From positions 85,125 to 149,124 of the forward strand of contig JAKQSI010000042.1 of the NCBI GenBank assembly GCA_029570205.1: a DNA stretch of 64,000 nucleotides, given 5' to 3'. Positions within the stretch are counted from its first letter, which is position 1. Every line of letters begins with the position of its first letter. Below, piece after piece: positions 46,584 through 63,931 of this stretch. The DNA is from Candidatus Omnitrophota bacterium. Its GTDB lineage: Bacteria > Hinthialibacterota > Hinthialibacteria > Hinthialibacterales > JAKPRU01. The position numbers were made by a program, and so were the translations under genes. The notes beneath the pieces are model-generated. The model searched no databases. It saw only the letters and a list, made by a program, of their open reading frames with translations, and was not told the DNA's origin.

Positions 46584-49500
46584 ACAGGCGTGGGACTCGG
46601 CAGAACAGTTCGCACCGCATGAACATTGACCACAAAACCGTTCCGGTTCTCGAACGGTTCCAGCGTCCCGTGGTATTCGAGAACCCCGTTTCCGGCTGTC
46701 AGGCGACCGTATTGATGGTATACCGGCGGAAACAGAACCAGCTCCGCAATGCCGGTCCGATCCGCCACCGAAACAAATTTCATGTATTCCCCTTTCAGAG
46801 TTTTTGTGGCCCGCCGTTCGACAATTGTTCCACAGATCGTGACAGTCGCATTCGGATATTGGGGCAAGGAAACAATCGGCGTGTATGGCCGCCAGTCGAG
46901 ATACCCATCGTAATAGTCCAGCGGGTGCCCCGACACCGTGAATCCGAGCGATTCCATCTCGATTTCCATTTTTCTGCGAAACGGATAATCACGATGCCCG
47001 CGCAACATGGCGAAACGGGCCTCATTCTCCGGTTCGAATAGGGACATCTGCGGGCTGGATGCGTTACAGGTTCCAGCTCTGGTGGGCCGGCGGGTCAACG
47101 ATTCCATCTCCCAGAGCAGGGCAGGGCGGGGAACTCCCCAGCTGTCACCCGCGCCGCAGCGAATCAGCGCGCGCAACACCGCCGGATCCATCCTGACCCG
47201 CCGCATCAGATCCTCCGGCGACTTGAACGGCCCGCGAACACCGCGTTCCGCCACAATCTGCCGGGCCACCCTGCCGGGCACATCCTTCACCTGTTCCAGC
47301 GGAACACGGATCTGATTCCCCTCAACCGTGAATCGCGCCGCGTCTGAGGCATTAAAATCGGGCAGCAAAAATCCGATGCCCAACTGCCGCGCTTCCAGTG
47401 TGTAAACAAACCGCGAGTAAAATCCCCTTCCGCTTGACAGCGCCGCCGCCAGAAACGCCGCCGGGTAATGCGCTTTCAAATACGCGGCCTGGTACGCCAG
47501 AATTGCATACGATGCCGAATGCGCCTTATTAAACGCATACCCGGAGAACTCCGTGATGTACCTCCAGACCGTGTCGATCTCTTTGTCCGCGTATCCTTTT
47601 GCGCGAGCGCCCCGCCGGAATTCCGCCTCGAATTCCTCCACCGTGTTCCGGCAGTTCCATTTGGTAAGCGCCCGACGAAGAAGGTCGGCGCGACCCAGGT
47701 TCATTCCCGCGAATGCGTGCGCAATCATCAGCACATGCTCTTCATAAACCATCACCCCGTAGGTACGTTCTAACACCGGTTTCAGCGCCGGATGCGGATA
47801 TGTCACCGGCTCTATCCCCTGGTATCGCCGCGAAAATTGCCGCATTTTCCCGTGGTTGCTCGCGCCGGGACGGATAATCGAAAGCGCCGCGATCAGGCAT
47901 TCCATATCGCGGCAATTCAACATCTTCAGCAGGTTGCACATCGCAGGCGATTCGATCTGAAAACATCCCCGTGCCTGCCCGCCCGCGATCAGCTCCCAGG
48001 TCTTCGGATCATCTTCCGGGATTTCATAAGGATTGATCTCTATCCCATGCTGTTGCCGGATTGTCTCAATAGTCTCTGAAATCACAGTCAGCCCCGCCTG
48101 ACCCAGCAAATCGATCTTAACCAGCCCCAGTTCCTCCACCGGCTCCATATCGAATTGCGTGACAATTGGTCCCTTCGCGCTTTTCTGCAAAGGCACAAGA
48201 TCGGTCAACGGTTGCCGGCTGACCACCAATCCACACGGATGCATCCCGGTGTGACGGGGCGCTCCTTCCAGGCATTTGGCAATCGCCAGAAGTGTCCGCA
48301 GCGGTTCCCGGTCCACCGGCAAATCGGAGCACTCCGGCAGCACATGAATTTTCTCCTCCAGCCGCTCAGCGGAACCATAAGGCAGTCGTTTGGTCAGACT
48401 GCGGATTTCCCGTTCCGCAAGGCCGAGAACTTTGCCGACTTCCCCGATAGCGGTCCGCGCGTGCATTCGGACCATGGAACAGATCGTCGCACAGTGATCC
48501 GCCCCATACCGCTGATACACATACTCCACCATCTCATCCCGACGGTCCCATGGAAGATCCAGGTCGATATCCGCCAGGCCGCTGTGAATCATTCGTTCGG
48601 GGTTGAGAAACCGTTCGAAATAAAGATTGTATCGAACCGGGCAGACATGGCTGATCCCCAGTGCATAGCACACCATGCTGTCGGCGGCGCTGCCCCGCGC
48701 AACTGCCCATATCCCGCGACGGTGCGCCTCACGGCAGATATCCCAGGTCATCAGGAAATACTCACTGTAGCCCACTTGCTGAATGATCCGCAATTCGTAT
48801 TCCAGCCGCTCGCGAATCGGTTCCGACAAATCGCCATAACGTTCAACAGCCCCCGCGAAACAGAGCTTCCGCAGGTAGGACGCCGCACTCTCCCCCTCCG
48901 GCAGCGGAAAATGCGGAAAAATCGTCCGCCCCAGCGAGAGCGGGAGTTCACACCGCTCCGCCGCGCGAAATGTGTTCTCCAACACCTCCGGGTAATCCCG
49001 AAACCGGCGCGCCATCTCCGCCGGTCCCGGCAAATCCAGCGACAGGCGAAGTTCCTTTTCGGGATGTCGGTAATGCAGCGCGGTTCCCGTTCGAATAGAC
49101 ACAAGAATCCGGTACAGCATTTCATCCGCCGGATCGACATAGTGCGCGTTCGGCACGGCAAGGCACGCAACACCGACCCGTCGGCCCAACGCCGCAATTT
49201 CGGACAACAGCCAACGATCACGGCTGTCCGGCCCCCAGTGCATCTCAAGGAAGAAATCCTCCGCGAAAATCTCCCGAAATCCGGTTGCTTCCTGCACAGC
49301 CTTCTCACCCTGCCGGGCCAGTATTCCCCGCGCCGGCGGCCCTTTCCGACACCCCGAAAGACACAGCAATCCCTCACGATGATTTGCAACTGCCTGTCGC
49401 GAGATCCCTTCCGGATGATCGATCAGGAAAGTAATCAGACGGCTCAAGTTTCGATATCCGACTCCGTTCTTAATCAACAGCACAATCCGGCTTCCGTCAT

Positions 49501-49705
49501 CCAGCGAAACTTCCGCTCCCAGAATCGGCTTGATCCCGCGCTTCTGGGCCGCCTTGTAAAACGGTACAGCGCTGTATATCCCGTCATAATCGGTGATCGC
49601 AATGCCGGGCATCCCAAACCGAGATGCCGCCCCCACAAGGTCCTCCACCGAGGCCGGGCTGCTCAGGAACGAGTAATAGCTATGCACATGAAGCGGAACA
49701 TACAT
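46580..49705 (-). CDS. Error-prone type DNA polymerase III alpha subunit (DnaE2/ImuC-like)
   Basis: 1041 residues, the DnaE2 length rather than the ~1160 of replicative DnaE. An N-terminal PHP domain (PLHVHSYYSFL, DYDGIYSAVPFYKA) is followed by the C-family polymerase core with catalytic acids in ADIDLDLPWDRRDEMVEYV and the later LVKIDLLGQ, a helix-hairpin-helix region (SPEDLMRRVRMDPAVLRALI) and a C-terminal OB fold (NATVTICGTIVERRATKTLK). DnaE2 normally acts in SOS mutagenesis with ImuA/ImuB; neither is here, and I see no LexA box upstream. Unusually, it forms an overlapping operon with galT and galK. Subtype assigned by length and motif flavour. Confidence 0.88.
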   Translation of the reverse strand: MYVPLHVHSYYSFLSSPASVEDLVGAASRFGMPGIAITDYDGIYSAVPFYKAAQKRGIKPILGAEVSLDDGSRIVLLIKNGVGYRNLSRLITFLIDHPEGISRQAVANHREGLLCLSGCRKGPPARGILARQGEKAVQEATGFREIFAEDFFLEMHWGPDSRDRWLLSEIAALGRRVGVACLAVPNAHYVDPADEMLYRILVSIRTGTALHYRHPEKELRLSLDLPGPAEMARRFRDYPEVLENTFRAAERCELPLSLGRTIFPHFPLPEGESAASYLRKLCFAGAVERYGDLSEPIRERLEYELRIIQQVGYSEYFLMTWDICREAHRRGIWAVARGSAADSMVCYALGISHVCPVRYNLYFERFLNPERMIHSGLADIDLDLPWDRRDEMVEYVYQRYGADHCATICSMVRMHARTAIGEVGKVLGLAEREIRSLTKRLPYGSAERLEEKIHVLPECSDLPVDREPLRTLLAIAKCLEGAPRHTGMHPCGLVVSRQPLTDLVPLQKSAKGPIVTQFDMEPVEELGLVKIDLLGQAGLTVISETIETIRQQHGIEINPYEIPEDDPKTWELIAGGQARGCFQIESPAMCNLLKMLNCRDMECLIAALSIIRPGASNHGKMRQFSRRYQGIEPVTYPHPALKPVLERTYGVMVYEEHVLMIAHAFAGMNLGRADLLRRALTKWNCRNTVEEFEAEFRRGARAKGYADKEIDTVWRYITEFSGYAFNKAHSASYAILAYQAAYLKAHYPAAFLAAALSSGRGFYSRFVYTLEARQLGIGFLLPDFNASDAARFTVEGNQIRVPLEQVKDVPGRVARQIVAERGVRGPFKSPEDLMRRVRMDPAVLRALIRCGAGDSWGVPRPALLWEMESLTRRPTRAGTCNASSPQMSLFEPENEARFAMLRGHRDYPFRRKMEIEMESLGFTVSGHPLDYYDGYLDWRPYTPIVSLPQYPNATVTICGTIVERRATKTLKGEYMKFVSVADRTGIAELVLFPPVYHQYGRLTAGNGVLEYHGTLEPFENRNGFVVNVHAVRTVLPSPTPV

Positions 49706-50174
49706 GACGGCTCACCGGATATATTGTACATCTGTTCAGTATCCGATGCAAGAAAAACCTGCCCGGTCCACCGTCGAACAGGCCAGGGCGAAAACCCCTG
49801 TATCTGTCGCAGGACCGCAAATCAGCGTATAAACTTTCCCCCGAAAATTGGGGGCGACAGACAGGGGGGGTGAATTCTTTCAACGCACAAGTCCGCTTCA
49901 TATTCCGGGGAGCATTGCGAGTATATTTCGATTGTTGCAGTTGCGGGTCATATTGATTTCGGAATCCGCAAAGTAGAACAGCATGATCCGATAATTCAAA
50001 ATCATTGCGGAAAAGCGTCCTGCGGGTATGTTGCCTACTCGCTTCGATTGAGGGATGTCTGCCTCGGCCGGCAGGGGGATACCTATGAACAAGCGCCGGT
50101 CGGTGTCAAATCCTGCACAGCCCGCAATGTCCGATTGCGTGGGATGGCCCTCCTTCCAACGGGTGCGGGGCGCG
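49706..50174. other. 470-base gap with one REP-like element
   Basis: Holds a CCCCCGAAAATTGGGGG palindrome with GACAGACAGGGGGGGTGA tail (49837-49876). The rest (49880-50174) has no recognised gene. A 97-codon minus-strand frame from 50188 overlaps the end of the sigma-54 activator but lacks a Shine-Dalgarno sequence and resembles nothing I know. Confidence 0.5.
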
Positions 50175-51548
50175 TCAGTTAATTTCATACCCCTGTTTTG
50201 TGTACCGTTGGATTTTATAGAGCAGAGCGCGGCGACTGATACCGAGTTCTCTGGCGGTTCCACTGCGGTTAAAGGCGTTTTTGCGCAGTGTCTTGAGAAT
50301 AGCCTCACGTTCAATATCTTCCAGTTTTCGACGGTTCGCGGGCAGGTTATCGTCGGCATTATCCTCCGAGAAGGCTGCCAGAATACGCTTGGGGAGATGC
50401 TCGCGGATAATCAAGTCGCCTCGTGCCATCAGGGTGGCACGCTCCATGGCATTGCGCAGTTCGCGGACATTCCCCGGCCACTCATACTCTTCCAGACAGC
50501 GGACAACCGAAGGCGAAAGGCGCGGCCGGCCATCCATGAAAGCGGCAGCAAAATAATTCGCTAGGGGGATGATATCCTCGCGTCGTTCGCGCAATGGAGG
50601 GACGTAAATTTCCATGACATTCAGGCGGAAAAACAGGTCTTCGCGGAACTTGCCCTGTTCGACTTCTTTCTCCAGGTTGCGGTTGGTGGTCGCCAGAATG
50701 CGGACATTGGTTTTGCGAACCAGGTTGGATCCGACCCGCTGGAATGTGCCGTCCTGGGTAATTTGAAGGAGTTTGGCCTGTAACGGGGGCGACATTTCAC
50801 CGATTTCATCGAGCAAAATGGAGCCGCCATCCGCCTCTTCGAAACGTCCGATGCGCTGTTGGGACGCTCCGGTGAACGAACCGCGTTCATGGCCGAACAG
50901 TTCGCTCTCCAGGAGGGCTTCCGGGATTGTGGCACAATTCACCTTCACCAGAGGTTTACTCACGCGCCCACTGCGACGATGGATAAAATCGGCCAGGACC
51001 TCTTTTCCAACTCCACTCTCGCCTGTGATGAGAATCCGGCTGTCGGAGGGCGCAACAAACGCGGCCTCCCGAAAGATTTGGAGAGTTAGAGGGCTTTCCG
51101 CGATGACATCTTCCGGGAGGTCCGGCCGTTCCAGACCCTGAAGAGGGGCGGATTCGCAGATTCCGATCGCTTTTTGAACGGAGGACAAGAGCTCGTCCAG
51201 GTCGATGGGTTTTTCCAGGTAATTGACGGCTCCATCCTGCATGGCCCGAACCGCGTCGCGGATATCGGCATAAGCCGTGACCAGGAGGACCGGCAAGGTC
51301 GGGAACCGCTTCCGAGCCAGCCGTAACGTATCCAGGCCGGACATGCCGGGCATACGTACATCGGAAATTATGATGTGGATATCCTCCTCCCGGTTTAGAA
51401 TCTCAATTGATTCCTCTCCGGATGCTGCGGTCAAGACTGTAAATCCCTGGCCGGATAGGAACGACGCCAGCAGGCTTCGCTGTCCGCCATCGTCATCCAC
51501 GATCAGGATTCGATATTTGGAACGTTCTTCCTGAAATTCACCTGTCAT
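50175..51548 (-). CDS. NtrC-family sigma-54-dependent response regulator
   Basis: 457 residues in three domains. The receiver (1-120) has acidic residues (ILIVDDDGGQRS) and the phospho-acceptor Asp in IIISDVRMPGMSG. The AAA+ domain (about 145-375) has Walker A GESGVGKEV, the sigma-54 contact loop GSFTGA (usual GAFTGA with A to S) and Walker B GGSILLDEIGEM. A Fis-type helix-turn-helix (NRSGTARELGISRRALLYKI) ends the protein. It activates RpoN promoters when phosphorylated. The 4-nt overlap with the kinase upstream, and the kinase's overlap with the secretin gene, tie it to the type II secretion operon, as PilSR is tied to pili. Confidence 0.93.
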   Translation of the reverse strand: MTGEFQEERSKYRILIVDDDGGQRSLLASFLSGQGFTVLTAASGEESIEILNREEDIHIIISDVRMPGMSGLDTLRLARKRFPTLPVLLVTAYADIRDAVRAMQDGAVNYLEKPIDLDELLSSVQKAIGICESAPLQGLERPDLPEDVIAESPLTLQIFREAAFVAPSDSRILITGESGVGKEVLADFIHRRSGRVSKPLVKVNCATIPEALLESELFGHERGSFTGASQQRIGRFEEADGGSILLDEIGEMSPPLQAKLLQITQDGTFQRVGSNLVRKTNVRILATTNRNLEKEVEQGKFREDLFFRLNVMEIYVPPLRERREDIIPLANYFAAAFMDGRPRLSPSVVRCLEEYEWPGNVRELRNAMERATLMARGDLIIREHLPKRILAAFSEDNADDNLPANRRKLEDIEREAILKTLRKNAFNRSGTARELGISRRALLYKIQRYTKQGYEIN

Positions 51549-53068
51549 TCTGGGTTGCCTTTGGATAGAACATTGAAGCCGAAAATACGGAAAACGGCTC
51601 CAGGTTCTTCGGTTGGAACATACCGGATTTCCCAGCCATGAGCCAAAACAATCTGACTCACCACGGCGAGGCCCAAGCCGGTTCCATGTTCCCGCGTAGT
51701 GAAATATGGTTGAAAAATCTTGCTCTGGTTTTCTACGGGCACTCCCGGACCGTTGTCCCGGATTTCAAGAAAGGGTTTTTGTCCTTTTTCCTGCCCGAAT
51801 CGGATCCGGATCAACCCTCCCTCATCCACGGACTGAATCGCATTCAACAGCAGGTTGAAGAGGACCTGCCGGAAAAACGATTCGTCTGCCTCAATGGTCG
51901 TATCCGGGATTTCAACTTTCAGGTCGATTTTTTTGTCGCCGAGGTCGGATAACAGGGCCTGTTCGACCTCCCTGGTTACGGCGGCCAGATTGACGGGAGT
52001 CGGTTTCGGCTCACACGGCTTGGAATAGTTAATGAACTCGTTGAGTTGTGCGGTGATCTGATCGACCTCTTCCGTAATCTGTAAGGCCTGGGTTTGGGTT
52101 TCGGGTCGCGTGCCGGTATCGCGTGCGATGACCTGCGCCAGCCCGCGAACAAGATTCAGCGGATTGCGTGTTTCATGCGCCAGACCGGCGGCAGCGAGAT
52201 TCATTCTGCGTAAATGGACGTTCATTTCGTTGGCCCGTACCAGGCGCACCTGCAAATCCGACGAGCGAACCAGACTGCGCCACGCCAACCCGAACCCTAA
52301 CAGGGCCACAAGGGTAGACGCGACAATGGGGATTCGCAGCCAGACATCTTTCTTAATAGCCAAATCATATTGTTTTGTGGACATCTCAATCGCGAATCCA
52401 TGAAGTCCCGCTTTTTGAACTAACGATTGGTATTCTTCCTCATCCATTCCTCGCGGGCGTCGAATTCGTGGTCCGGGCCGGTTCCTTTCCCGGCGAACAT
52501 GGTCTCCGGCTCGGGTAGCCGATTCAATGTTGCTGTCGGCAGGTTCCGGGGGCAAAGGTCGGGGTTCGTTATCCTCAAAGGCTTCCATTTCCGGCGGAGG
52601 CGGCCGCATCCGGTGAAGAATGCCTCGATCATTTTCCTGAAGGATCAGAGTGGGGGTGTCCCAATCCTCGAGTGGGGATTCCACTTCCAGATCGACAAGA
52701 CTGACCATCCAAACGGAGTTTTTGTCCCACTTTTCTCCAGCCTCAATCAGACTGTCCAAATCGGAGATGTCGATATCGCCCGCCGAACACACAATTTCAC
52801 CATAAGCATTAAACAGTATAACGGACTTGAAGTCTTCGGAGCGGACAAGTTCGAGCAAGGCGGCTTCCAGTCGAGGTTGAAAAACAACACCCCCGAAAAA
52901 ACGCTGGGACCGGATTACTACAGCGAGAGTATTGGCGATATCACGTCCCCGATTGCGCAGGGCGGTCCGGCCGTCCGCAACGACTCGCTGATGCTCCAGG
53001 TACTGCCACGCCACGACCGCCAGCCAGAAGATTGTCAACACAATGGGGATCACCCGTTTGAGAATCAT
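51545..53068 (-). CDS. Membrane sensor histidine kinase
   Basis: 507 residues with two transmembrane helices (residues ~5-22 and ~250-270) around a ~225-residue extracytoplasmic sensor. The sensor begins PAS-like (LVRSEDFKSVILFNAYGEIV) and contains an unusual Pro/Glu/Arg-rich stretch (MRPPPPEMEAFEDNEPRPLP, RRERNRPGPRIRRPRG). The kinase core has H-box GLAHETRNPLNLVRGLAQ, N-box LLLNAIQSVDE, G1 EIRDNGPGVP and G2 HGTGLGLAVV. It is of the NtrB/ZraS/PilS type that phosphorylates NtrC-like regulators. Both ends overlap neighbours by four bases. The signal is unknown; its position suggests it senses secretion or envelope state. Confidence 0.92.
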   Translation of the reverse strand: MILKRVIPIVLTIFWLAVVAWQYLEHQRVVADGRTALRNRGRDIANTLAVVIRSQRFFGGVVFQPRLEAALLELVRSEDFKSVILFNAYGEIVCSAGDIDISDLDSLIEAGEKWDKNSVWMVSLVDLEVESPLEDWDTPTLILQENDRGILHRMRPPPPEMEAFEDNEPRPLPPEPADSNIESATRAGDHVRRERNRPGPRIRRPRGMDEEEYQSLVQKAGLHGFAIEMSTKQYDLAIKKDVWLRIPIVASTLVALLGFGLAWRSLVRSSDLQVRLVRANEMNVHLRRMNLAAAGLAHETRNPLNLVRGLAQVIARDTGTRPETQTQALQITEEVDQITAQLNEFINYSKPCEPKPTPVNLAAVTREVEQALLSDLGDKKIDLKVEIPDTTIEADESFFRQVLFNLLLNAIQSVDEGGLIRIRFGQEKGQKPFLEIRDNGPGVPVENQSKIFQPYFTTREHGTGLGLAVVSQIVLAHGWEIRYVPTEEPGAVFRIFGFNVLSKGNPE

Positions 53069-54282
53069 GAACGTGTCCTTGATTGGTTCTTCCGGCTTTT
53101 CTTCGTGTTGGAGTTCTTACTGGTGTTGTCATCCGAGGGCGCGGGTTTTGTGTCGGATGTCGGCTCGTCCGATGATTTCTTGACCTGCGCTTCGGGCAAG
53201 CCATCCATGAATTTCGTGAATTGGTCTTCCGGGAAGGCCTGAGGCATCAGTTCGGACTCGCTCCGTTCTTTCGCGGTGACATCCACCAGTTTCTCCGGGC
53301 CTTCCACAACATAAGGCGTGAGGAAGATCAACAATTCCGTTTTCTCGCTCCCCTTGACTTTCCGCTGGAAGAGCAGTCCCAGGCCGGGAATGTCTCCCAA
53401 CACCGGGACCTTGTTTCGCGTCTCCGTCGTATTATCCGACATCATACCCCCAATCACAACGGTTTGGCCGTTTGGTGTGACAACGACGGTGTCGGCGGAT
53501 CGCTTGGCAAACACCGGCGAGTTGATGGTATCGGAGATCGGCACGGTTTCGTCCGTGATCGTAGAGATTTCGGGAGCCAGAATCATTTCGACGAGGCCCT
53601 CTTTTGTGATAAACGGAGTCACCCGGAGAATAATCCCGATATCTTCGTACTCGACCGTATTGATGGTCTGACCGTCCGAGGTGACCCGACTGTTTGTAAT
53701 GAAAGGAACTTCCTTACCGACGGTAATCACGGCCTCCTGATTGTTGCGCGTAAGGATCGATGGACGAGACAGCACTTCCAGTTTTCCGGCCTCCTGAATA
53801 GCCCGAAGAGTAACATTAACATCGTCCTCGAGGAGTTTGTAAAAGCTGCCTCGCGACTCTGCCGCCAACCCGTACGCGGTTTCAAATACGTTGGAACCGG
53901 GGCGGTCGCCATTGATGTCAAGCATTCCCTCTACGCCGATATCCACATCGTCCCGATAGGTTACCTCAGCAAATACCACTTTGATCAGTACCTGCTGAAT
54001 CGGACGGTCGAGGCTCTCGATGATCTGCCGGATATGCTCGTTGGAGTAATCATCCGAAATCACGATAATCGACCGACTGTCCCGATCCGCCTCGATAACG
54101 GCTTCGCCGATCGTACCCTGGCCGTAATAAATCCGCTGTACGGACGAAGAACTGAGCGAACTGGAGCTGCCAAACTGGCTTTGCCCAAACCCCATGCTCC
54201 CTCCAGTCCGCTGAGCCGAAACCGACCGGGATACCACCGTGCCGGACAGAACGAATAATATCACAACAACCAGACGCTTCAT
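53065..54282 (-). CDS. gspD: Secretin C-terminal part (outer-membrane barrel) of split GspD
   Basis: 405 residues with its own signal peptide (LVVVILFVLSGTVVSRSVSA) after a good AGGGAGG. After a Ser-rich linker it starts with the second half of an N-type domain (AVIEADRDSRSIIVISDDYS, HIRQIIESLDRPIQQVLI). The secretin domain proper then follows: SRPSILTRNNQEAVITVGKE, YEDIGIILRVTPFI, TVVVTPNGQTVVIGGMM and VPVLGDIPGLGLLFQRK, the classic secretin signature. A charged C-terminal tail (from about residue 365) may bind a pilotin. The N0-N3 domains are in the separate gene upstream. It forms the outer-membrane channel of the type II secretion system. Overlaps the kinase gene by four bases. Confidence 0.92.
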   Translation of the reverse strand: MKRLVVVILFVLSGTVVSRSVSAQRTGGSMGFGQSQFGSSSSLSSSSVQRIYYGQGTIGEAVIEADRDSRSIIVISDDYSNEHIRQIIESLDRPIQQVLIKVVFAEVTYRDDVDIGVEGMLDINGDRPGSNVFETAYGLAAESRGSFYKLLEDDVNVTLRAIQEAGKLEVLSRPSILTRNNQEAVITVGKEVPFITNSRVTSDGQTINTVEYEDIGIILRVTPFITKEGLVEMILAPEISTITDETVPISDTINSPVFAKRSADTVVVTPNGQTVVIGGMMSDNTTETRNKVPVLGDIPGLGLLFQRKVKGSEKTELLIFLTPYVVEGPEKLVDVTAKERSESELMPQAFPEDQFTKFMDGLPEAQVKKSSDEPTSDTKPAPSDDNTSKNSNTKKSRKNQSRTRS

Positions 54283-54303
54283 TGTTCGGCCTCCCTTCCT
54301 TGG

Positions 54304-55755
54304 CTAATCTGAACTTCGAATCGACTGCGAACCCGACGAATCCGTGCTCACCGTTCGATTGCTGAGCGTATTCGCATTCGTGTCCGATGTCTCGGACCTG
54401 TTTGTGGACGAGTACTCGTTCTCAAATATATTCCGTAGAATCTCGGCTACATTGTCGACATCCGCATATTCCAAGTGATATACGAACACCTTCTTCTTCC
54501 GCGCGGGATCGCAATCCAGCTGCTCGACCATCTGGGCAATCTGGACCATTGTTTCATGCGCGGCCAATACCAACACAGAATTGGTACGCGGATCTGCGAC
54601 GCATCGAACCGTGGTTTGCTCCAATTTGCGATCACTAGTCGTAGTTTGCTCGGAACCGCCTCCCATCCCGGGCATCATTCCGGGTCCCCCGCCGCCCGGG
54701 CCGAAACGCGGGGCAAACGGGTTTTGGCTGCTGCTCGACTCATCAGGAAACAACTCCTGAATTTGCTCGGCCAGTTCCGACGCATCTGCCTGCTTCAAAG
54801 TGAACACACGGACCTCTGTGAGGTCCTCCGTTGGAGTGTCTACCTCCTTCACAATCGCCTCGATTGTGGGCATCAGATCCGCAGGGGCATTCACAATCAG
54901 TGAGTTCGTCTTGTCGTCGGCCACGGCTACGACACGGGCGGCTGCCCGCCGAGCCTCACTGCTGGTCTGCGGTTCACTCGCACCGCCCATCGCACCCATT
55001 TCGCTACCCGGGCCCCCTAAGCGCCCAAACCGAAAGCCGGTCCGCTGATTCCAGCGGCTGCTCGAATCCTCGCTTTGAAACAGTTGCGTAATCGTTTCAG
55101 CCAAATCCGACGCATCGGCATATTGCAGAAGAAAGACACGGATCGAGGCGATCGTTGAAATCGAGGTATCCAGCGATTCAATGATCTTTACCATACGATG
55201 AACGTTGTTTTGCGTGTCGGTAATGATGACGGCATTGCTGCTCTCGTTTGCGCTCATGCCCGCATACGACGGCAGCAAAGGTTGCAGGTTCTCGATCAGC
55301 TTCACGGCATCGACATAACGGACCGGGACAATCTGTGTAACCATTTCATCCGTTCGCGGAATGGCCTCCGCCACATTCCCCGTTTGGACCGGAATGTCTT
55401 TTTGCTTGGCCTCCTCCCTCTTTACTATTACAAGGGTCCGGCCCCGCCGGATTGCCGCATAGCCTTTCTCATATAAAACCGTGTTAAGCAGATCCACGGC
55501 TTCTTCCTGCGTGAGGGGTTGCCGGCTCACTACGTCTACCTCCGCCTCCACATTCACCTGCTTGACAATCGCAAATCCGACTGCTTGACTGAAATAGTCC
55601 AGTACTGTGTCCAGGCTGGCGCCCCGGAAATTGAGACGGATCCCGTTACCGCCTTGCGCTTGGGCGGAGGGGGTGGCGTCCTCAAGGGCCACCGCATCGG
55701 TTACGTCCGGAATAACCAGCGCAATAAACAGTATAACCGCGAAGCCGGATTTCAT
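54304..55755 (-). CDS. Secretin N-domain protein (N0-N3 part of split GspD)
   Basis: 483 residues with a signal peptide (SGFAVILFIALVIPDVTDA). An N0/STN-like domain (IRLNFRGASLDTVLDYFSQA) is followed by three secretin_N repeats at about 135-205 (VPVRYVDAVKLIENLQPLLP, NAVIITDTQNNVHRMVKIIE), 205-315 (FLLQYADASDLAETITQLFQ, TNSLIVNAPADLMPTIEAIV) and 315-430 (FTLKQADASELAEQIQELFP, TNSVLVLAAHETMVQIAQMV). Gly- and Met-rich loops interrupt the repeats. A fourth repeat begins (VFVYHLEYADVDNVAEILRN) but stops halfway; its second half is at the start of the next gene. There is no barrel domain. Together the two proteins would build one periplasmic gate and channel. Confidence 0.88.
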   Translation of the reverse strand: MKSGFAVILFIALVIPDVTDAVALEDATPSAQAQGGNGIRLNFRGASLDTVLDYFSQAVGFAIVKQVNVEAEVDVVSRQPLTQEEAVDLLNTVLYEKGYAAIRRGRTLVIVKREEAKQKDIPVQTGNVAEAIPRTDEMVTQIVPVRYVDAVKLIENLQPLLPSYAGMSANESSNAVIITDTQNNVHRMVKIIESLDTSISTIASIRVFLLQYADASDLAETITQLFQSEDSSSRWNQRTGFRFGRLGGPGSEMGAMGGASEPQTSSEARRAAARVVAVADDKTNSLIVNAPADLMPTIEAIVKEVDTPTEDLTEVRVFTLKQADASELAEQIQELFPDESSSSQNPFAPRFGPGGGGPGMMPGMGGGSEQTTTSDRKLEQTTVRCVADPRTNSVLVLAAHETMVQIAQMVEQLDCDPARKKKVFVYHLEYADVDNVAEILRNIFENEYSSTNRSETSDTNANTLSNRTVSTDSSGSQSIRSSD

Positions 55756-56378
55756 AATTCTTTTCTCTCCTGTTTTCGTCTCTCCATCATTCTTTGCAAT
55801 AAATCGCTGCCGGCTCCCTGCGCCGCCGGTTCGGACTTTGTCACGGCAGGCTCGGCGCTGTCCCGACGGTTCCCCGGTTCATGCCCCGGCAATGTTTTCC
55901 GCGCCGGCACGGCGGCCACTTCCCATCGACCGCCATCCTGCCTGACTATGCGCGACCCGACCGGGAGATCCAGTGACGTCCCGGAGCTTTGAAGCGAAAC
56001 ATGTCCGGGGTCTATCACCGTAACGGTGCATCCCGCGATCGTGTCGCCCACGCTGAGTACCCCTTGATAGTCCGCATCGCTTCCCTCGAAGAAGGCATAC
56101 GTTCCCGCTCCGGTATCGATCATACCGACGTAGATTATCTCCTCTACTGTCGGCGTGCGGGCGACCGGGGAAGGCAGCGATTCTGCGCTTACATGTTTCC
56201 GATTGGGATTAAAGATATTTCGACTGATAATTAACTGAAAAGACTCGTACTTCTGCGCCGAATGGTTGTCTTTCGGTTCGGCTATATCCTGGCAGACACT
56301 GTGCCCGCCAAGAACTGCCGTTATACACATCATACGAACCAAAGCCGCAATCAAGTCTCTTGATATTCCCCTGTTCAT
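55752..56378 (-). CDS. gspC: GspC/PilP-like type II secretion clamp protein
   Basis: 208 residues with an N-terminal hydrophobic segment (LIAALVRMMCITAVLGG). The homology-region-like part (QLIISRNIFNPNRKH, then EEIIYVGMIDTGAGTYAFFE, YQGVLSVGDTIAGCTVTVID, HVSLQ) matches GspC/PulC HR and PilP domains, which link the inner-membrane platform to the secretin. No PDZ domain is visible. The C-terminus is charged and short. Overlaps the N-domain secretin gene and gspM by four bases. The GspC versus PilP choice is open. Confidence 0.72.
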   Translation of the reverse strand: MNRGISRDLIAALVRMMCITAVLGGHSVCQDIAEPKDNHSAQKYESFQLIISRNIFNPNRKHVSAESLPSPVARTPTVEEIIYVGMIDTGAGTYAFFEGSDADYQGVLSVGDTIAGCTVTVIDPGHVSLQSSGTSLDLPVGSRIVRQDGGRWEVAAVPARKTLPGHEPGNRRDSAEPAVTKSEPAAQGAGSDLLQRMMERRKQERKEL

Positions 56379-56914
56379 GATATTTCCTCCTCCTTCACAA
56401 ATTGGACACCGCTGAATGTAACATCGATAGCCAGCGATTGACCGCCGTCGTCCCGACTGATGATTGCAACAGTTTCAATTTTCAGACACAGCGGGTCAAT
56501 CTCCAGTTCGTAAAGAAATCGGCTGATTTCAGAAATTCCTCCCTGAGCGGATGCGCGACACTCGAGAGTATTGTAATGTTCCTCGTGGGTTTTCCATAAT
56601 TGCTTCAAAGAAACCAAAGTGATCCGGCTGGCGGTCACCCAACGGTCAACGGATTTGAGCACCTGATTTTCCGCCTGTGACGCATCCTCTGACAGCGCGT
56701 CGTGTTGCATTTCTTGCCAACGTTCTCGGATTTCGCGCTCCCGGGTGAGCAGTAAATGCCCTCGGCTGAGAGTGTTGTTAAGGCGTGTTATCCCTTCTGC
56801 GCGGTATTTCCAGAAGTGGAGACACGGAGTAACAATGAGTCGGTCACCCACCAGGCCGGCGAGACAGAGAATGGCGGCAAGAAGAAGTAATCGTTCGCGA
56901 TTGGGGGTTGTCAT
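56375..56914 (-). CDS. gspM: GspM/PilO-like inner-membrane assembly protein
   Basis: 179 residues with one N-terminal membrane helix (LLLLAAILCLAGLVGDRLIV), a coiled-coil segment (NNTLSRGHLLLTREREIRER) and a ferredoxin-like C-terminal fold (ISEISRFLYELEIDPLCLKI, LAIDVTFSGVQFV). This is the GspM/PilO layout, partner of GspL/PilN. It lies between gspL and gspC with a four-base gap and a four-base overlap. Identified mainly by fold pattern and position. Confidence 0.72.
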   Translation of the reverse strand: MTTPNRERLLLLAAILCLAGLVGDRLIVTPCLHFWKYRAEGITRLNNTLSRGHLLLTREREIRERWQEMQHDALSEDASQAENQVLKSVDRWVTASRITLVSLKQLWKTHEEHYNTLECRASAQGGISEISRFLYELEIDPLCLKIETVAIISRDDGGQSLAIDVTFSGVQFVKEEEIS

Positions 56915-56918
56915 GCTG

Positions 56919-58322
56919 TCATTCTCCCGCCCAACATAAAGTTAATCGGAATTGCGTCGGGCTTCTGCCCTGAACTTGCTGGACTTGTAACTGCGTGACC
57001 CGTCTGTCCTGATTGAGCCGATCAAGAACCTTCAGCAATTCCGTGCTGCCACTTGCATAGCCCTCGCACGAAATAGCCGAGCCGTCTTTAATTTCAACGG
57101 CTTTTGCCCATGCGGAGCCTTCTTCAGGAAATGCCTCCGTAAGGGTCAGAATTGCGTTCAAGGTCGGGATGCTGTCGCCGAACCAGGGCCTGAACAAACG
57201 GACCTTATCCTGTAGCGCTTCGATTTCGGAGACCTGAGTCTTGATGGCGCCCCATTCGGACTCTAGTCGTGCGAGTTGCATGTGTTGCCACAGGAAGGCA
57301 AGCATGGCGACAAGGACGACTACCGCGCCGATTCCACCAAAGAAGAGATTGCCACGCGATGACATTCTGGAAACAATACGCTGGAACGAACCTGTCTTCG
57401 CAGGAAGAAACTCAAACAGGCGGTCCTGACCGTTCAGGATGCGCGATAATGTAACATATAGGGGCCACGCTCCGGGGGCATTGCTGCCGACGGGATCAGG
57501 CGCCATGTCGATCCTTGCGGCCGGAATGAATGGTCGTATCCAGTCCACGAGGGCGGACTGGAAACGGGACCGCCAGGGTTCGACCCCCTGTATAACAATT
57601 GTGCCGATCAATTCGCGGACCGGGGACGGTAGTTCACTCAATGTGAGGCGTATTTCGCGCAACACAGCATCGTCTGGATCGCCGGTGTGCGGATCCCCGT
57701 CGCCGTTTTCTGACGCAAGCCATCGCAGCGTGACGACTCCCCCGCCGCCGACCACCGTGACATCGATGCCTGCCTCACGTTGTTGTACGCACAGGACTCC
57801 TTCGTCCTGAGGTAGCGGATGAGGAACCGGAACTCCAACGGTAATACTAATCGGCCGTAGTTGGGCTATGTTGCACACCGCCTCGAGTGCGCGAACGTAG
57901 GTCAATGGAATTGCCAGGATCGTAACATAGCGCTTTCCATCAGGGGCGCTAAATGTGGAAATGGATATCGAGAGGTCCTCCAGAGAAAACGGGAATTCCC
58001 GCTCTGCATGGAGATGGATAAAGCTCTGTTGATCGTCGCTCCCCAAGTCCGGTAATTCGATGCAATGCTTGAGTAGCCATTTCAATGGAAGGCATATTAC
58101 GCAACGTGTTTCACGGATCCCCGCCTCCTGTAATCTGTTGCGGATCTCCTGACCGAGAAGTTCGGGCGTTGCGGCCAATGGGTCAAGAACCAAAGGAACC
58201 TGTATCTGCTTCTTTATCTGTGTGCCGTCGCCGGTGCGTGACACGAGAGCGGCCCGCAGACATTGGTCACCGAACTCGATCCCCAAAAGGGTCTTATAGG
58301 CTACTTTCCGCTGCGCAGTCAT
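56919..58322 (-). CDS. gspL: GspL-type protein (PilM-like actin fold fused to PilN-like domain)
   Basis: 467 residues from MTAQRKVAYKTLLGIEFGD, after GGAGGGC; the ATG overlaps the gspK stop. The cytoplasmic N-terminal ~330 residues have the PilM/GspL actin-like pattern (TLLGIEFGDQCLRAALVSRT, VICLPLKWLLKHCIELPDL, HAEREFPFSLEDLS, LAIPLTYVRALEAV). A single membrane helix (FGGIGAVVVLVAMLAFLWQH) is followed by a coiled coil and a small periplasmic PilN-like domain (LLKVLDRLNQDRRVTQLQVQ). GspL couples the GspE ATPase to the inner-membrane platform. Confidence 0.85.
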   Translation of the reverse strand: MTAQRKVAYKTLLGIEFGDQCLRAALVSRTGDGTQIKKQIQVPLVLDPLAATPELLGQEIRNRLQEAGIRETRCVICLPLKWLLKHCIELPDLGSDDQQSFIHLHAEREFPFSLEDLSISISTFSAPDGKRYVTILAIPLTYVRALEAVCNIAQLRPISITVGVPVPHPLPQDEGVLCVQQREAGIDVTVVGGGGVVTLRWLASENGDGDPHTGDPDDAVLREIRLTLSELPSPVRELIGTIVIQGVEPWRSRFQSALVDWIRPFIPAARIDMAPDPVGSNAPGAWPLYVTLSRILNGQDRLFEFLPAKTGSFQRIVSRMSSRGNLFFGGIGAVVVLVAMLAFLWQHMQLARLESEWGAIKTQVSEIEALQDKVRLFRPWFGDSIPTLNAILTLTEAFPEEGSAWAKAVEIKDGSAISCEGYASGSTELLKVLDRLNQDRRVTQLQVQQVQGRSPTQFRLTLCWAGE

Positions 58323-59728
58323 CTCGTTGACGCCCTCCATTCCGACAGTTGAGAGCGGATATCCTTTCCCAATGCCCATCCGAGATCGGTCCTGTCCCTC
58401 CGGTAAACCGCCTTTGCCTGCCCGTCACTGATATCCAGGACATAATAGATTCTTCGGCAGCCCCTCCCGTATTGCCCCACGGCGGCCACGTCTGCACTGA
58501 ATTGGTAGGTATGAGTAGTCAAATAGGGGCCGGCCTGTATAGCGGCGTCTTCGTCCAGTACCTGTGCTACCCAGGCGACGGAATGCAGATTCTTCGTGTG
58601 CCCCAGGCGGTAGGCGACGAGGGCGGAGGCACAGGACGAACCGATTCCCGGTATGCAGCTCAGAACCTCCTCGCAGGCGGTATTGACGTTGATCGGGACG
58701 ATCTCCGTTTCCATATCTGACCCCGCGCCGGACTGTGATCCGGAATCCGCACCTGAAACGGTAAGAGAATCGGCAAGTGTATCACATTCATCCGGCGTCA
58801 TCTTGCTGCGGATATAGAACTCAAGGATGCTTCGGAACTCCGCCCCCGCGCCGAGTTGCGACAAAATATCATTTGCTCGAGTTTCACCAAGGGTCTCCCT
58901 CAGTAGACTACGCAGGTCCTCTTGATCTTTAGTATTCACATCAACGACGGACCCGCCGTCCGCGGTTTCTACAGGTTGGCTACTTCGACTATAAACCGTG
59001 AGGTACTCCACGATTCCGGGATCCAATTCCCCGTCCTGATTGTCACTCGGCGGCGACGCTTCACCGTCGTTCTCGTTCGGGTCCAAAATGCCGTTGAGGT
59101 TCGTGTCTTCCCCGAACAATATCTCATCCTTCGCGCCATAAACCATCTTCAACTCGAGTACCGTCTCGAACGGGCCGTTCTTACAACGGTAGGCCGGTTT
59201 TCGGAGAGTATAGGTTTCCGCTTCAGCGCCGTTTTCCGAGACTTGACTGTCTGCGTCACGCCAGTCTACAATTGCCGCGGCACATTCCGGAGTCATTCTG
59301 GGGAGGTTCGCCAGCATTTCGACTGTAGCCGTATTCAGATTCAGTTTTGAGCATTCGTCTACCAGGCTGAACACAGGCATTGTGTCCGGCTGTGCATCGG
59401 GATGACGGCCCAGCAGCCAATAGGTTGCGTCGCCGACAGGCACAGCCTCCGCTTTATATTCATCATTGTCCACATCCGGCATCGTCCCCGGTTCTTCGAG
59501 ATTCTCGAGCACGTAGCACACGTAGCGCATTGCGCTTTCCGCCGCCTGCTCTGCCTGAATTCCGGCAACGGTGGAATCCGCGGAACGGTATTGGAGGACA
59601 ATAATTTGCCCGAACACAAGGACCAGCGCGACCAGACCGGCGCATATCCACAGGACGACGATCAGTACCGCCGCCTCTCTGTAGCCGAGGTCCGGTTTCT
59701 GATATCGGAGATAGTGTGCGCGAATCAT
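58319..59728 (-). CDS. gspK: Type II secretion minor pseudopilin GspK
   Basis: 469 residues. The N-terminal helix (AAVLIVVLWICAGLVALVLV, preceded by GYREA) is pseudopilin-like. A helical T2SSK domain contains LNLNTATVEMLANLPRMTPE and a second helix-hairpin-helix VNVNTACEEVLSCIPGIGSS. An EF-hand-like calcium loop is visible (EDTNLNGILDPNENDGE), comparable to the Ca sites of known GspK. GspK caps the pseudopilus with GspI and GspJ. Overlaps gspJ and gspL by four bases. Confidence 0.9.
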   Translation of the reverse strand: MIRAHYLRYQKPDLGYREAAVLIVVLWICAGLVALVLVFGQIIVLQYRSADSTVAGIQAEQAAESAMRYVCYVLENLEEPGTMPDVDNDEYKAEAVPVGDATYWLLGRHPDAQPDTMPVFSLVDECSKLNLNTATVEMLANLPRMTPECAAAIVDWRDADSQVSENGAEAETYTLRKPAYRCKNGPFETVLELKMVYGAKDEILFGEDTNLNGILDPNENDGEASPPSDNQDGELDPGIVEYLTVYSRSSQPVETADGGSVVDVNTKDQEDLRSLLRETLGETRANDILSQLGAGAEFRSILEFYIRSKMTPDECDTLADSLTVSGADSGSQSGAGSDMETEIVPINVNTACEEVLSCIPGIGSSCASALVAYRLGHTKNLHSVAWVAQVLDEDAAIQAGPYLTTHTYQFSADVAAVGQYGRGCRRIYYVLDISDGQAKAVYRRDRTDLGWALGKDIRSQLSEWRASTR

Positions 59729-60528
59729 CTGCCTGCACCTCCGGTTTCATCCGCGCCTTGGGAGCCGGTACCCGTTGCTCCGTCTGCTTGCTGGTCTTGC
59801 CACGAGGGAGCGGCCCCGCCGGAATTCGTGCTTTCCTCCGCCTCCGTCGATATGGCGTGTGACACGACTGGAACGGTAACTTGAATTGTCGATTGGCTTG
59901 GTCCGCGGGGCGGTCCTGTACTCGCCGAATTGTCGGGGACGATCGTGACACGGATCGCCGCAGGAAGCGCCGGATCTTCCGCGGACGAATCCCAGCAGGT
60001 TCGCCAGGAAGTGCCGTCATAGTACTCGAAAATAAGACTACTGATACGCTCTAAAAGAGGCTCGTATTCCGGTTCCTCCTGTACCGTGGACAACAGATTC
60101 CGCGTGACTCCGCGCAGAAGGTAAAGCCCCTCTTTGGCGCCGGGGCAATCCAGAGACGAAAGAGTATATTCAATTTGTTGAATATCCCCCCAGGGATCGC
60201 CTTCGGTTAACGTTCCCGATGTGGAGAATAGAATCAATTCAGCGCCAGACTGGGAAACCATGCTCTCCTGCCCGCCGATCATGTCACCGATCAGAAGGCC
60301 ATTGGGCGCGGCGGCATTGGCTAAGTCACGTTTAATTATTTCAATCGCATATTGCCGGGACAACTGCGTATCCTCGGCCTGATAGGCACGGTCGCGCAAG
60401 TGAATTGCATTAGAAAACACTGCGTTAATGGATAGGACAAGGATGGCCCCGATGGCCGTTGCCACCAGCAATTCAACCAGGGTTACACCGTGCCGAGAAC
60501 CCCAGGAATGGGCGCTATCACGAATCAT
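59725..60528 (-). CDS. gspJ: Type II secretion minor pseudopilin GspJ
   Basis: 267 residues with a prepilin peptidase site (RHG|VTLVELLVATAIGAILV, Glu at +5) and the GspJ-type body (YAIEIIKRDLANAAAPNG, LEYTLSSLDCPGAKEG-like segment reading IEYTLSSLDCPGAKEGLYLL). The C-terminus is unusually long, Ser/Gly/Gln-rich and low-complexity. Forms the pseudopilus tip with GspI and GspK. Four-base overlaps on both sides. Confidence 0.85.
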   Translation of the reverse strand: MIRDSAHSWGSRHGVTLVELLVATAIGAILVLSINAVFSNAIHLRDRAYQAEDTQLSRQYAIEIIKRDLANAAAPNGLLIGDMIGGQESMVSQSGAELILFSTSGTLTEGDPWGDIQQIEYTLSSLDCPGAKEGLYLLRGVTRNLLSTVQEEPEYEPLLERISSLIFEYYDGTSWRTCWDSSAEDPALPAAIRVTIVPDNSASTGPPRGPSQSTIQVTVPVVSHAISTEAEESTNSGGAAPSWQDQQADGATGTGSQGADETGGAGR

Positions 60529-60950
60529 GATGACACCTCCGCCACCACTAGGGTACTTAAGCGAACATTCTGCTCCCGGCCCTGTACCGGGAAATACACA
60601 ATCAGGGTCAAGAGATAGAAGTTGTCGTCCGTCCAGGGTTGCTTAAGCAATGCCCACCGATAGTCGGCCCACTCCGATCCAAAATTACCCTTTGCCGATG
60701 AATACTGCCACTGCCGCGTTACAGACAGCTCGTTCAGGTACTGCTCGGCCAGACGAACGGCTATCGATTGGCGTTCGGCCAATACGGAGACACCGTTCGC
60801 GATGCGGATACCTTTCAACGTCACGGGTATCACGGTCGCAGCCAGAACCATAGCCGCAAGAACTTCCGGGAAGGTGAAACCCGCTGCGCGGAATAACACC
60901 GCGTTAGAGGCAGAGCCGAGCCGATTGTCCTTACGAGATGCCGCGTTCAT
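60525..60950 (-). CDS. gspI: Type II secretion minor pseudopilin GspI
   Basis: 141 residues from the ATG seven bases after GAGGAGG; an ATG 12 codons upstream has no Shine-Dalgarno sequence. The prepilin motif is AAG|FTFPEVLAAMVLAATVIP, with Pro-Glu at the conserved position. The body (AERQSIAVRLAEQYLNEL) fits GspI/PilV-like tip subunits. Overlaps gspH by 20 bases and gspJ by four. Confidence 0.82.
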   Translation of the reverse strand: MNAASRKDNRLGSASNAVLFRAAGFTFPEVLAAMVLAATVIPVTLKGIRIANGVSVLAERQSIAVRLAEQYLNELSVTRQWQYSSAKGNFGSEWADYRWALLKQPWTDDNFYLLTLIVYFPVQGREQNVRLSTLVVAEVSS

Positions 60951-61470
60951 TCTGTGCCTCCTCTTCCGTGAGAACGGACCATTCATGGCCGATAAGCGGG
61001 CGTGCGACTATAATTCTGTCATCGCCGTGTCGAAAGCGGATGTATTGCAGACCATCGCTTTCCATGATTCCATCGGGCCGGAAAGTGATTGTTGCGACGC
61101 CGTTAACCAAAGGTTGGCCTGGGTATAGTTCCATCGCCGTATCCTCGTCGAGATAGAACTGAACTTGCCGATCGGTTGCCCACTCATAACCTGTCATGGC
61201 ATGCAGACCGTAGCGGTTGTTCCGTGTATCCATCCACAGCTCCAGCGGCACACCGCTCGCTACAGACTCGCGAAACGCGTATCGAATCAGCGACAGCAGT
61301 CGGTGAGCCTCTCCGTCCAGTGCCTGGCCGCGGAAAAATCGGGACAGTCTCGGCGCGGATGCCACCGCGACCGCGCTTAAAATAGCCATCACCAGGATGA
61401 GCTCCATGAGCGTGAATCCAGGCGAACCGACCGGCTTATTGTTCGTTCTGCTTATAGTTTGTGATATCAT
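60931..61470 (-). CDS. gspH: Type II secretion minor pseudopilin GspH
   Basis: 179 residues from the ATG five bases after GGGAGG; a GTG two codons earlier is an alternative. Prepilin motif SPG|FTLMELILVMAILSAVAV. The GspH/FimT domain follows (HRLLSLIRYAFRESVASGVP, LELWMDTRNNRYGL, ITFRPDG). It overlaps the end of gspG by about 35 bases. Confidence 0.85.
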   Translation of the reverse strand: MISQTISRTNNKPVGSPGFTLMELILVMAILSAVAVASAPRLSRFFRGQALDGEAHRLLSLIRYAFRESVASGVPLELWMDTRNNRYGLHAMTGYEWATDRQVQFYLDEDTAMELYPGQPLVNGVATITFRPDGIMESDGLQYIRFRHGDDRIIVARPLIGHEWSVLTEEEAQNERGIS

Positions 61471-61888
61471 CGTCACCTCCCGACCGGCCGTCCGGCCCCA
61501 TGGAGACTAGATCAAAGCCTTGCGGATTGCGTTTGCCGGGGTATTCATACAAATAAGCATTTCCCCACGGATCCAACGGAATGTCCTCGATGTACGGGCC
61601 GCGCCAGTTTTTGGCATAACTCGGCTGCTCTACCAGATCCCGCAGACCGTTGCTTCCTTTTGGGTAGGTCCCGTTATCCACCTCGAACGAGTCCAGCACT
61701 ATTTCCAGATTAGCGATCTGCGTCTGGGCGGCGGTAATTCTCGCCTGTTCCGAACGTCCCGCAAATTTTGGAACGACGATGGCCGCCAGGGTTGCCAAAA
61801 TAACGAGAACGAGAAGCATTTCCACCAGGGTGAAACCGCCTTGCGCGCAATGTCGTTGTTGTATGCATTGTGTTTTGACAGAAGCCAT
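61436..61888 (-). CDS. gspG: Type II secretion major pseudopilin GspG
   Basis: 150 residues from MASVKTQ, eight bases after GGAGG. Classic major pseudopilin: QGG|FTLVEMLLVLVILATLAAI, VVPKFAGRSEQAR, NGTYPKGSNGLRDLVEQP, WRGPYIEDIPLDPWGNAY, and the calcium-site tail LVSMGPDGRSGGDDDITNY. It forms the pseudopilus shaft. Needs a prepilin peptidase (gspO/pilD), not present in the window. Confidence 0.96.
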   Translation of the reverse strand: MASVKTQCIQQRHCAQGGFTLVEMLLVLVILATLAAIVVPKFAGRSEQARITAAQTQIANLEIVLDSFEVDNGTYPKGSNGLRDLVEQPSYAKNWRGPYIEDIPLDPWGNAYLYEYPGKRNPQGFDLVSMGPDGRSGGDDDITNYKQNEQ

Positions 61889-61908
61889 TTCTATGTCCTC
61901 CATACCGG

Positions 61909-63135
61909 CTATTTGATGTAGTCCTGAATCGTGAAAATGGGGATCACCATCCCAATGAAAATTGTCCCGATGAATCCCGCGATGAAAAACAACATGAGCG
62001 GCTCAGCTAATGCGACCGCTGAGCGCAACTGCCGTTCCAATTCCTGCTCCGTCGTTTCTGCAATCCGGATGAGTTCTTTGTCCAGGCGGCCGGTTTCTTC
62101 GGCTACAGATATCATTTCCAGTACGGCGTTTGAAAATAGTTGACTACAATTCAAGAAGCTGCCGGAAAGTCGGTCCCCCTTCTTGACGCGCTCGATGCCA
62201 TCGGCGACGGCATCGGCCAGGATGCGATTTGGGATGGATTTCCGCGCAACATTCAAGCCCTGAATTAGAGGGACACCGGCGGCGAGCAGGGTTCCCAACA
62301 TGCGGCAGAATCGAGCCATGGCGAACCGCGCCATCAGCGGCCCGATAATGGGTAAGCGAAGAAACATGCTTTCGCGCACGCGAATCCCGCGCTCTGTAGA
62401 GAGCCATTGGCGGAGGAAGTACGCGAGAACGGCTACCAGAACGACGACAAACGGCCCCCAATCTCGGATCAGACCGCTGGTCCCGACAATCGCCCGCGTG
62501 ATGAGGGGCAATTCGGCGCCGAAACTCTTGAACATGGATTGAAATCTCGGAATGAAGAAGACCAGGAGAAAAATCAATACGGAGATCGCGAGGACCAGGA
62601 GAACAGACGGGTAAATGAGGGCGGCCATCAACCGAGAGCGGAGGTCTCTGTCACGGCTTTGAAACTCGGCGATCTGGTTGAGAACTAAATCGAGAAAACC
62701 CCCTGTTTCCCCTGCCTGTACCATGGCGATATAGACTCGGGGGAAAATATCAGGGAATTGGGCCATGGAGTCGGCCAGTGTTGTGCCGTCGATGACACGA
62801 TCATGAATAGCCTTCCATTGTTCTGCTGTTGTGGGATTACCGGCCTCTCGGTAGAGGAGGGCGAGCGAGCGGCTGAGCGGGATCCCGGAGGCGAGTAAAC
62901 TGGAAAGAAGGCGGGTAAAATGCTCTAATTCCTTAAAAGTCACTTTTCCGTTACGCCATGGAAGGCGGAGCCACGGGCGCTGTGGCGCAGCCGGGTGAGT
63001 CAATTCGGAGATGCGGATCGGTTGCCAGCCGCGCGCAAGGATCTGATTAAATACATCCTGACGGCCCGGCGCCTCTACCTGGCCCTCGGCGAGGGTCCCA
63101 TCCGTTTGCAATGCACGATAATGAAAGTGAACCAT
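61909..63135 (-). CDS. gspF: Type II secretion inner-membrane platform protein GspF
   Basis: 408 residues with two T2SSF helical domains (ELEHFTRLLSSLLASGIPLS and MARFCRMLGTLLAAGVPLIQ) and three to four membrane helices (LIYPSVLLVLAISVLIFLLV, FVVVLVAVLAYFL, LMLFFIAGFIGTIFIGMVIP). The conserved AGETGGFLDLVL and AEETGRLDKELIRIA repeats are present. It interacts with the GspE ATPase and GspL/M. Twenty bases upstream of gspG. Confidence 0.95.
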   Translation of the reverse strand: MVHFHYRALQTDGTLAEGQVEAPGRQDVFNQILARGWQPIRISELTHPAAPQRPWLRLPWRNGKVTFKELEHFTRLLSSLLASGIPLSRSLALLYREAGNPTTAEQWKAIHDRVIDGTTLADSMAQFPDIFPRVYIAMVQAGETGGFLDLVLNQIAEFQSRDRDLRSRLMAALIYPSVLLVLAISVLIFLLVFFIPRFQSMFKSFGAELPLITRAIVGTSGLIRDWGPFVVVLVAVLAYFLRQWLSTERGIRVRESMFLRLPIIGPLMARFAMARFCRMLGTLLAAGVPLIQGLNVARKSIPNRILADAVADGIERVKKGDRLSGSFLNCSQLFSNAVLEMISVAEETGRLDKELIRIAETTEQELERQLRSAVALAEPLMLFFIAGFIGTIFIGMVIPIFTIQDYIK

Positions 63136-63165
63136 GGTGACACGGTCTCCATAATCCGTTGTCGG

Positions 63166-63863
63166 CTACCACCATTCGAATTGCTCATCTTTGCTGACCC
63201 GGAGCACTTCCTGTACCGTGGTCGCGCCTTCCAGGACGAGGCGCCAGCCGTCTTCGCTTAACGACTTCATCCCCGCGCGAGAGGCGGCCAGCCGAATTTC
63301 GCCGGCGGAATGTTCGTGCAGGACCATGTCGCGGATTTCCGTATTGAGCATCATCATTTCGAACACGGCGCGGCGGCCATGGAATCCTGTATGGCGACAC
63401 TGTTCGCATCCGACAGCGCGGAACACGGTCCGGTCATCCGGCAAGCCGAGACGTTTCCGCAGGGCCAGGGTTCGTTCCGATGTGTCTTCCGTTTTGCAGT
63501 GGGGGCAGAGCACGCGAACAAGACGCTGGGCTATTACGGCTTCGAGTGACGAGGCAACCAGGTAGGATTCGACCCCCATATCCACCATCCGTGTAATCGC
63601 TCCGGGGGCGTCATTTGTATGAAGGGTCGAAAAGACTAAATGGCCGGTTAATGATGCTTGAACGGCGATCTGCGCGGTCTCCTGGTCGCGGATTTCTCCG
63701 ACGAGGAGGACATCCGGGTCGTGTCGAAGGATTGAACGCAGACCGCGCGCAAAAGTCAGTCCGGTTTTTTCCGAGACCTGGATCTGGTTGATTCCTTTCA
63801 ACTGGTATTCGATGGGGTCTTCAATGGTAATGATTTTTCGTTCGGAATCGTTAATTTCGCTTA
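63166..63863 (-). pseudogene. gspE: Type II secretion ATPase GspE, 5' part cut off by an IS element
   Basis: The C-terminal ~230 residues of the secretion ATPase. Visible are [20 protein letters not shown] (Asp-box region), [20 protein letters not shown] (Walker B), [13 protein letters not shown] (His box), and the zinc-binding CPHC...CEQC pair in the C-terminal domain. Reading upstream, GspE-like sequence stops abruptly at codon AGC (63861-63859). There the expected Walker A region should begin about 15 residues further on, but the frame turns into unrelated sequence and reaches a TGA. The break falls at a TA dinucleotide that abuts an IS630-like end. The rest of gspE should lie beyond the window on the far side of the element. 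Confidence 0.82.
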
Positions 63864-63895
63864 CTAATCCAAACCATATATAGTAGGCATGTGGC

Positions 63896-63923: not shown

Positions 63924-63931
63924 GTGTAATT

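Follow-up and report, generated by a model that had tools for sequence, protein, structure and literature searches.

A GspD-like secretin encoded by two adjacent genes

The stretch of DNA analysed here, 64,000 nucleotides from a Candidatus Omnitrophota bacterium (hereafter the window), carries a T2SS operon in which the secretin is distributed over two genes, with the break between them lying inside a domain. A 2023 review presents the bacterial pore as built from copies of one polypeptide, in contrast to mitochondrial GspD (PMC10128026). This raises the question whether the two products build one channel together, whether they serve separate roles, or whether they are after all one chain, either disrupted in the assembly or joined by recoding of a stop codon.

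Both genes, as well as all other features described for the window, are located on the minus strand. The upstream gene A (gspD-N; 54304..55755) specifies 483 aa and ends with a TAG stop codon (54304-54306). Its product comprises a signal peptide, an N0 domain, three complete secretin_N domains, half of a fourth and a tail rich in Ser, Thr and Asn. Pfam placed the N0 domain that is typical of GspD at residues 41-106 (PF21305; 40.2 bits against a cut-off of 27) and recognised four Secretin_N stretches, the repeats expected of GspD, of which the fourth is partial, is equivalent to GspD N3 and has its complement in B. When the last 75 residues of A were searched alone, they matched positions 1-38 of the 69 positions of the Secretin_N profile. 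A strand and a helix at residues 418-455 (54391..54504) make up this first half, which is followed by the low-complexity C-terminal tail (residues 456-483; 54307..54390), which forms one side of the cut loop. With four secretin_N repeats, the secretin of the window has one more than E. coli GspD.

The downstream gene B (gspD-C; 53065..54282) specifies 405 aa from its own ATG. It is separated from the stop codon of A by a spacer of 21 bases with the Shine-Dalgarno sequence AGGGAGG (54283..54303). In the window the two genes share a frame, and only the TAG and seven codons lie between them. Protein B begins with a signal peptide (54214..54282; predicted cleavage after SVSA, before Q24), and the mature protein starts with a Gly/Ser-rich stretch, the other side of the cut loop (residues 24-54; 54121..54213; pLDDT <50). 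Then follow a strand-strand-helix unit that supplies the second half of the divided domain (residues 55-101; 53980..54120; pLDDT 93-96), the complete secretin C-domain or barrel (residues 102-327; 53302..53979), which gave a fold match to GspD and XcpQ, and a C-terminal tail. Searched alone, the head of B matched Secretin_N positions 27-69 of 69, while the C-domain matched the full PF00263 profile, as in GspD (residues 161-327; E=1.3e-49; 168.5 bits against a cut-off of 27.5). By their sequences, the end of A and the head of B are complementary parts of one domain. The make-up of both proteins, including the ribosome site and signal peptide of B, had been read from the letters in an earlier note on this DNA, and our analysis bore it out, with both open frames located at the positions given there.

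The GspD model TIGR02517, which has 600 positions, was matched by A over positions 1-335 (233.5 bits) and by B over positions 263-600 (238.5 bits), and neither protein reached its cut-off of 351 bits as a single-polypeptide GspD would. In an alignment with E. coli K-12 GspD (5wq7 chain), the match to A ended at residue 268 and that to B started at residue 282, which places the break in a loop of the N domain just ahead of the barrel.

The split secretin lies in a T2SS operon

The T2SS operon is a complete one, and its genes are ordered F-G-H-I-J-K-L-M, probable C, A, B, NtrB-type kinase and sigma-54 regulator, so that A and B are preceded by gspF to gspM and a probable gspC, in keeping with the gspE-M neighbourhood of GspD. 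Specifically, we assigned gspF (61909..63135), gspG for the major pseudopilin (61436..61903; TIGR01710 cut-off passed), gspH (60931..61476), gspI (60525..60986), gspJ (59725..60528), gspK (58319..59728), a gspL/pilM-like gene (56919..58379) and gspM (56375..56914). The window end truncates an ATPase-like open frame. The probable gspC (55752..56378; 208 aa), whose product would be the partner of N0, gave a weak match to GspC_delta of NCBIfam (E=1.7e-4), well below the cut-off, and its position is conserved. Directly downstream of B, and overlapping its end, lies the gene for an NtrB-type sensor kinase (51545..53068), followed by that for a sigma-54-dependent response regulator (50175..51548). 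Since the domain and context features of GspD were present and the single-chain feature was absent, the window secretin was filed as a variant of GspD rather than as an ordinary member. The mitochondrial type, which has a truncated C-domain and lacks N0, was not matched either, as B contains the full PF00263 profile and A an N0 domain.

The kinase and the sigma-54 regulator (window positions 50175-53068) possibly constitute a two-component control specific to this T2SS. In Verrucomicrobiota, both keep their place after the split secretin, the position of the regulator being kept in loci L067 and L071. An Rfam search of window positions 49000-64000 returned no match. Unsplit secretins are encoded elsewhere in the genome of the window, for example by a 1002-aa frame on contig C38. 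In addition, contig C86 of this genome (G000; 101306-102990; L004, L005) carries two secretin-like matches about 450 bases apart, in different open frames of 404 and 490 aa.

The two-gene layout recurs across phyla

A survey of related genomes, which the earlier note had proposed, uncovered the same two-gene layout at 23 other loci, which rules out a chance arrangement. The 24 split loci, most of the surveyed genomes being metagenome-assembled, comprise 10 from the class of the window, 12 from Verrucomicrobiota, one from Planctomycetota and one from a further lineage. Of 14 genomes from the class, 10 contained A, and these same 10 contained B. Three of them belong to the genus, six are all the remaining genomes of the order, and one represents another family; in each of the 10, A and B were separate genes with separate starts. 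A ended there with TAG, TAA or TGA, and B was in frame with A in seven cases and out of frame in three. The identity of the B proteins to that of the window ranged from 96 down to 50%. One congener in the species collection is Candidatus Omnitrophota bacterium USCA_maxbin.089. In congener G001, a second A end with a B was found at a contig edge (C3:2-1582; L050, L156), its B being 88% identical to that of the window; this copy could stem from a duplication or from a mixture of strains.

When the species collection was scanned, seven Verrucomicrobiota loci emerged, 40-53% identical and all cut at the same place. Six carriers (E <= 1e-60) turned up among 288 sampled Verrucomicrobiota genomes; five were additional to those of the scan, and the split form was present throughout. 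The order L-M-C-A-B was kept in the Verrucomicrobiota loci L067-L075, most of which also have J-K upstream and NtrB-NtrC downstream. Sampling of 294 Planctomycetota at the same threshold yielded 29 carriers, and 19 of the 20 loci examined were fused. The exception was L175 in genome G641, where A and B overlap by one base (TGATG); three relatives of G641 have the fused form. Locus L200, the remaining split case, was picked up when 386 genomes were surveyed.

Two candidates were dismissed. The Omnitrophota-labelled locus L114 resembled a further split case, but the frames searched there yielded no partner similar to A. The protein that it encodes (~470 aa; L114:2778-4286) combines a signal peptide with just the second half of an N domain and is possibly a short secretin. 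L221, which had seemed to contain a short frame, is in fact fused and cut by the edge of the locus.

This distribution bears on the two explanations in which A and B are really a single gene product. That one gene was split by a sequencing or assembly error draws on nothing besides the general frequency of such errors in metagenome assemblies, and the same split was found at 24 loci in many assemblies, with a signal peptide on each B. That a single chain arises by stop read-through or programmed recoding at TAG 54304-54306 would fit the shared frame in the window. However, the frames are in phase at only 9 of the 24 loci (the window and eight others), the third expected by chance, and out of phase at the remaining 15, and across the 24 loci TAA, TAG and TGA are all in use. 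Moreover, every B has kept its own start and a hydrophobic signal sequence ending at an xxAQ cleavage site (24/24 loci, with signal peptides called by pattern rather than by a dedicated predictor), and read-through would bury this hydrophobic segment within the chain. Together, the occurrence of every stop codon and relative frame among the 24 loci and the signal peptide on each B led us to rule out both sequencing error and conserved read-through; each is left with hardly any chance. The view of the earlier note that the gap is not a sequencing frameshift was thereby upheld.

The halves are conserved and are predicted to form one domain

When A and B were aligned with natively fused relatives, their half-domains fell on the two halves of N3, the last N domain, and kept the core residues of the fused N3. 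The stretch between the halves varied from 7 to 123 residues among 54 fused relatives (median 32). This places the split in a hypervariable loop, where a break would leave the fold intact. The corresponding region of PulD, loop 288-303, could not be modelled (PMC6882859) and is regarded as flexible for this reason.

To assess selection, dN/dS was computed against genome G001. The value was 0.018 for the half-domain of A (only 30 codons), 0.06 for that of B and 0.018 for the barrel, as compared to 0.145 for the tail of A, 0.29 for the Gly/Ser linker of B and 0.60 for the signal peptide of B. Both half-domains are under strong purifying selection.

As A and B are in phase in the window, a single read-through chain could be predicted. 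In this artificial chain (P0001; AF2 with 70 sequences), the TAG was read as Gln. The strand-helix unit from A (422-427, 433-455) and the strand-strand-helix unit from B (62-66, 71-76, 78-91) both had a pLDDT of about 90-96 over most of their length. The joining stretch, consisting of the A tail, the spacer, the signal peptide and the Ser-rich part, fell below 50 from residue 143 of the chain (A 460) onwards. The composite N domain matched the crystal structure of XcpQ N2 (5mp2; Z 11.2; 1.8 A over 68 residues). For the entire chain, the matches to GspD and XcpQ reached Z about 15. The halves are therefore predicted to form one complete N domain together. Because one artificial chain was folded and fused homologues were present in the alignment, this prediction speaks for compatibility of the fold and not for binding. 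A prediction of B alone from its single sequence, made without an alignment, was uninformative (pLDDT 31).

A probable single channel from two exported chains

We consider it likely that A and B constitute a true T2SS secretin assembled from two exported chains, which complement each other non-covalently in the domain adjacent to the barrel and yield one channel. The sequence shows that each protein has a start codon of its own for translation and a signal peptide of its own for export. A would then provide the periplasmic N0-N module that contacts GspC as in other T2SSs, and B the barrel in the outer membrane. The two would meet in the periplasm, where the last N domain, right under the barrel, would be built in trans from the strand-helix of A and the strand-strand-helix of B. 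Most likely, A and B would be present 1:1 around the ring, with A beneath B, giving one functional channel.

The earlier note had left a choice between complementation in the periplasm and separate roles, and the constraint on the halves, the alignment to N3 and the predicted composite domain favour the former. If the roles were separate, B alone would form the channel and A would act as a periplasmic scaffold for GspC, its half-domain being unpaired with B. Such a division would agree with the export of A and B as separate chains, whose interaction is deduced rather than observed, and with the existence of short secretins such as that of L114, for which no A-like open frame was detected in the searched frames. 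We nevertheless regard it as unlikely, since the half-domain of A retains the core positions of the fused N3 and ranks with the most strongly constrained regions of that protein, and since A and B always co-occur side by side. It is also conceivable, although quite improbable in our judgement, that complementation is dynamic, with the N module of A docking on and leaving the barrel of B, so that the two would be assembled separately or in a ratio other than 1:1. Two exported chains joined via one small domain would permit such an exchange, and the unresolved PulD loop in the region of the cut (PMC6882859) suggests flexibility there, but permanent pairing would lead one to expect the same strong constraint on both halves. 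The furthest-reaching version, in which the vestibule (A) and the barrel (B) are separate subunits connected by the composite domain, with a vestibule that could dock, exchange or differ in number from the barrel, making a channel open to regulation and conserved across phyla, strikes us as rather doubtful. Under the preferred reading of complementation, a secretin naturally split in at least two phyla, with an export signal on each part, would imply that vestibule and barrel need not be joined covalently. The split loci offer natural material for finding out which of the two parts enters the outer membrane, by what steps the periplasmic module is put together and whether this module can come off during transport.

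Comparison with known secretins

By sequence and fold, the closest solved relatives are the bacterial GspD and XcpQ secretins. They share the domain order of N0, N repeats and secretin C-domain as well as the setting in a gsp operon, but they are single chains, whereas the window encodes two exported chains, cut in the middle of the last N domain, and an extra N repeat. A split bacterial GspD was not found reported in the open-access literature searched.

The nearest precedent is the mitochondrial T2SS of Naegleria and relatives, in which GspD is likewise divided over separate polypeptides, GspD and GspDN1-N3. GspDN2 and GspDN3 each make up one half of an N domain, and yeast two-hybrid data indicated that GspD and GspDN1 may interact (PMC8134430). 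The window secretin therefore provides a bacterial parallel to the fragmented mitochondrial GspD, including the same kind of cut through an N domain. The mitochondrial proteins, however, are encoded by eukaryotic genes, have a truncated C-domain, lack N0 and come in up to five pieces, while the two adjacent genes of the window retain every domain, with a bacterial signal peptide on each product.

Evolutionary history of the split

The closest relatives of the split clade, both by sequence and in the tree, are the fused GspD proteins of Planctomycetota (L069, L072, L171-L174, L176-L189). The variable loop is present in them too, at the position of the cut, but both halves are contained in one open frame. 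Maximum-likelihood analysis of 58 secretin cores grouped 23 of the 24 split rows in one clade with 100/100 support and placed the split case from Planctomycetota among fused relatives. As signal-peptide columns had been included in this first tree, a trimmed tree was made without them, which is the safer one for counting changes. On the trimmed tree, the split label required two changes, and no bootstrap tree required only one. A single group of all 24 split rows was, however, not rejected (AU p = 0.16). For this reason we no longer assert firmly that the split had two independent origins, and an independent second origin in the one Planctomycetota is likely rather than proven. One ancient split, ancestral to a clade that extends over Verrucomicrobiota and the class of the window, is well supported. 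The possibility raised by the earlier note, that relatives might carry a single fused gene at this locus, held for Planctomycetota and failed within the split clade, where no fused relative was found.

A plausible route to the present arrangement would be tandem duplication and subsequent reciprocal loss; this would account for the signal peptide on B. Secretin frames of more than 2300 aa with many secretin_N repeats were also encountered in Verrucomicrobiota and Planctomycetota (L157 and L158 of G061 and G062; L076; L078-L080).
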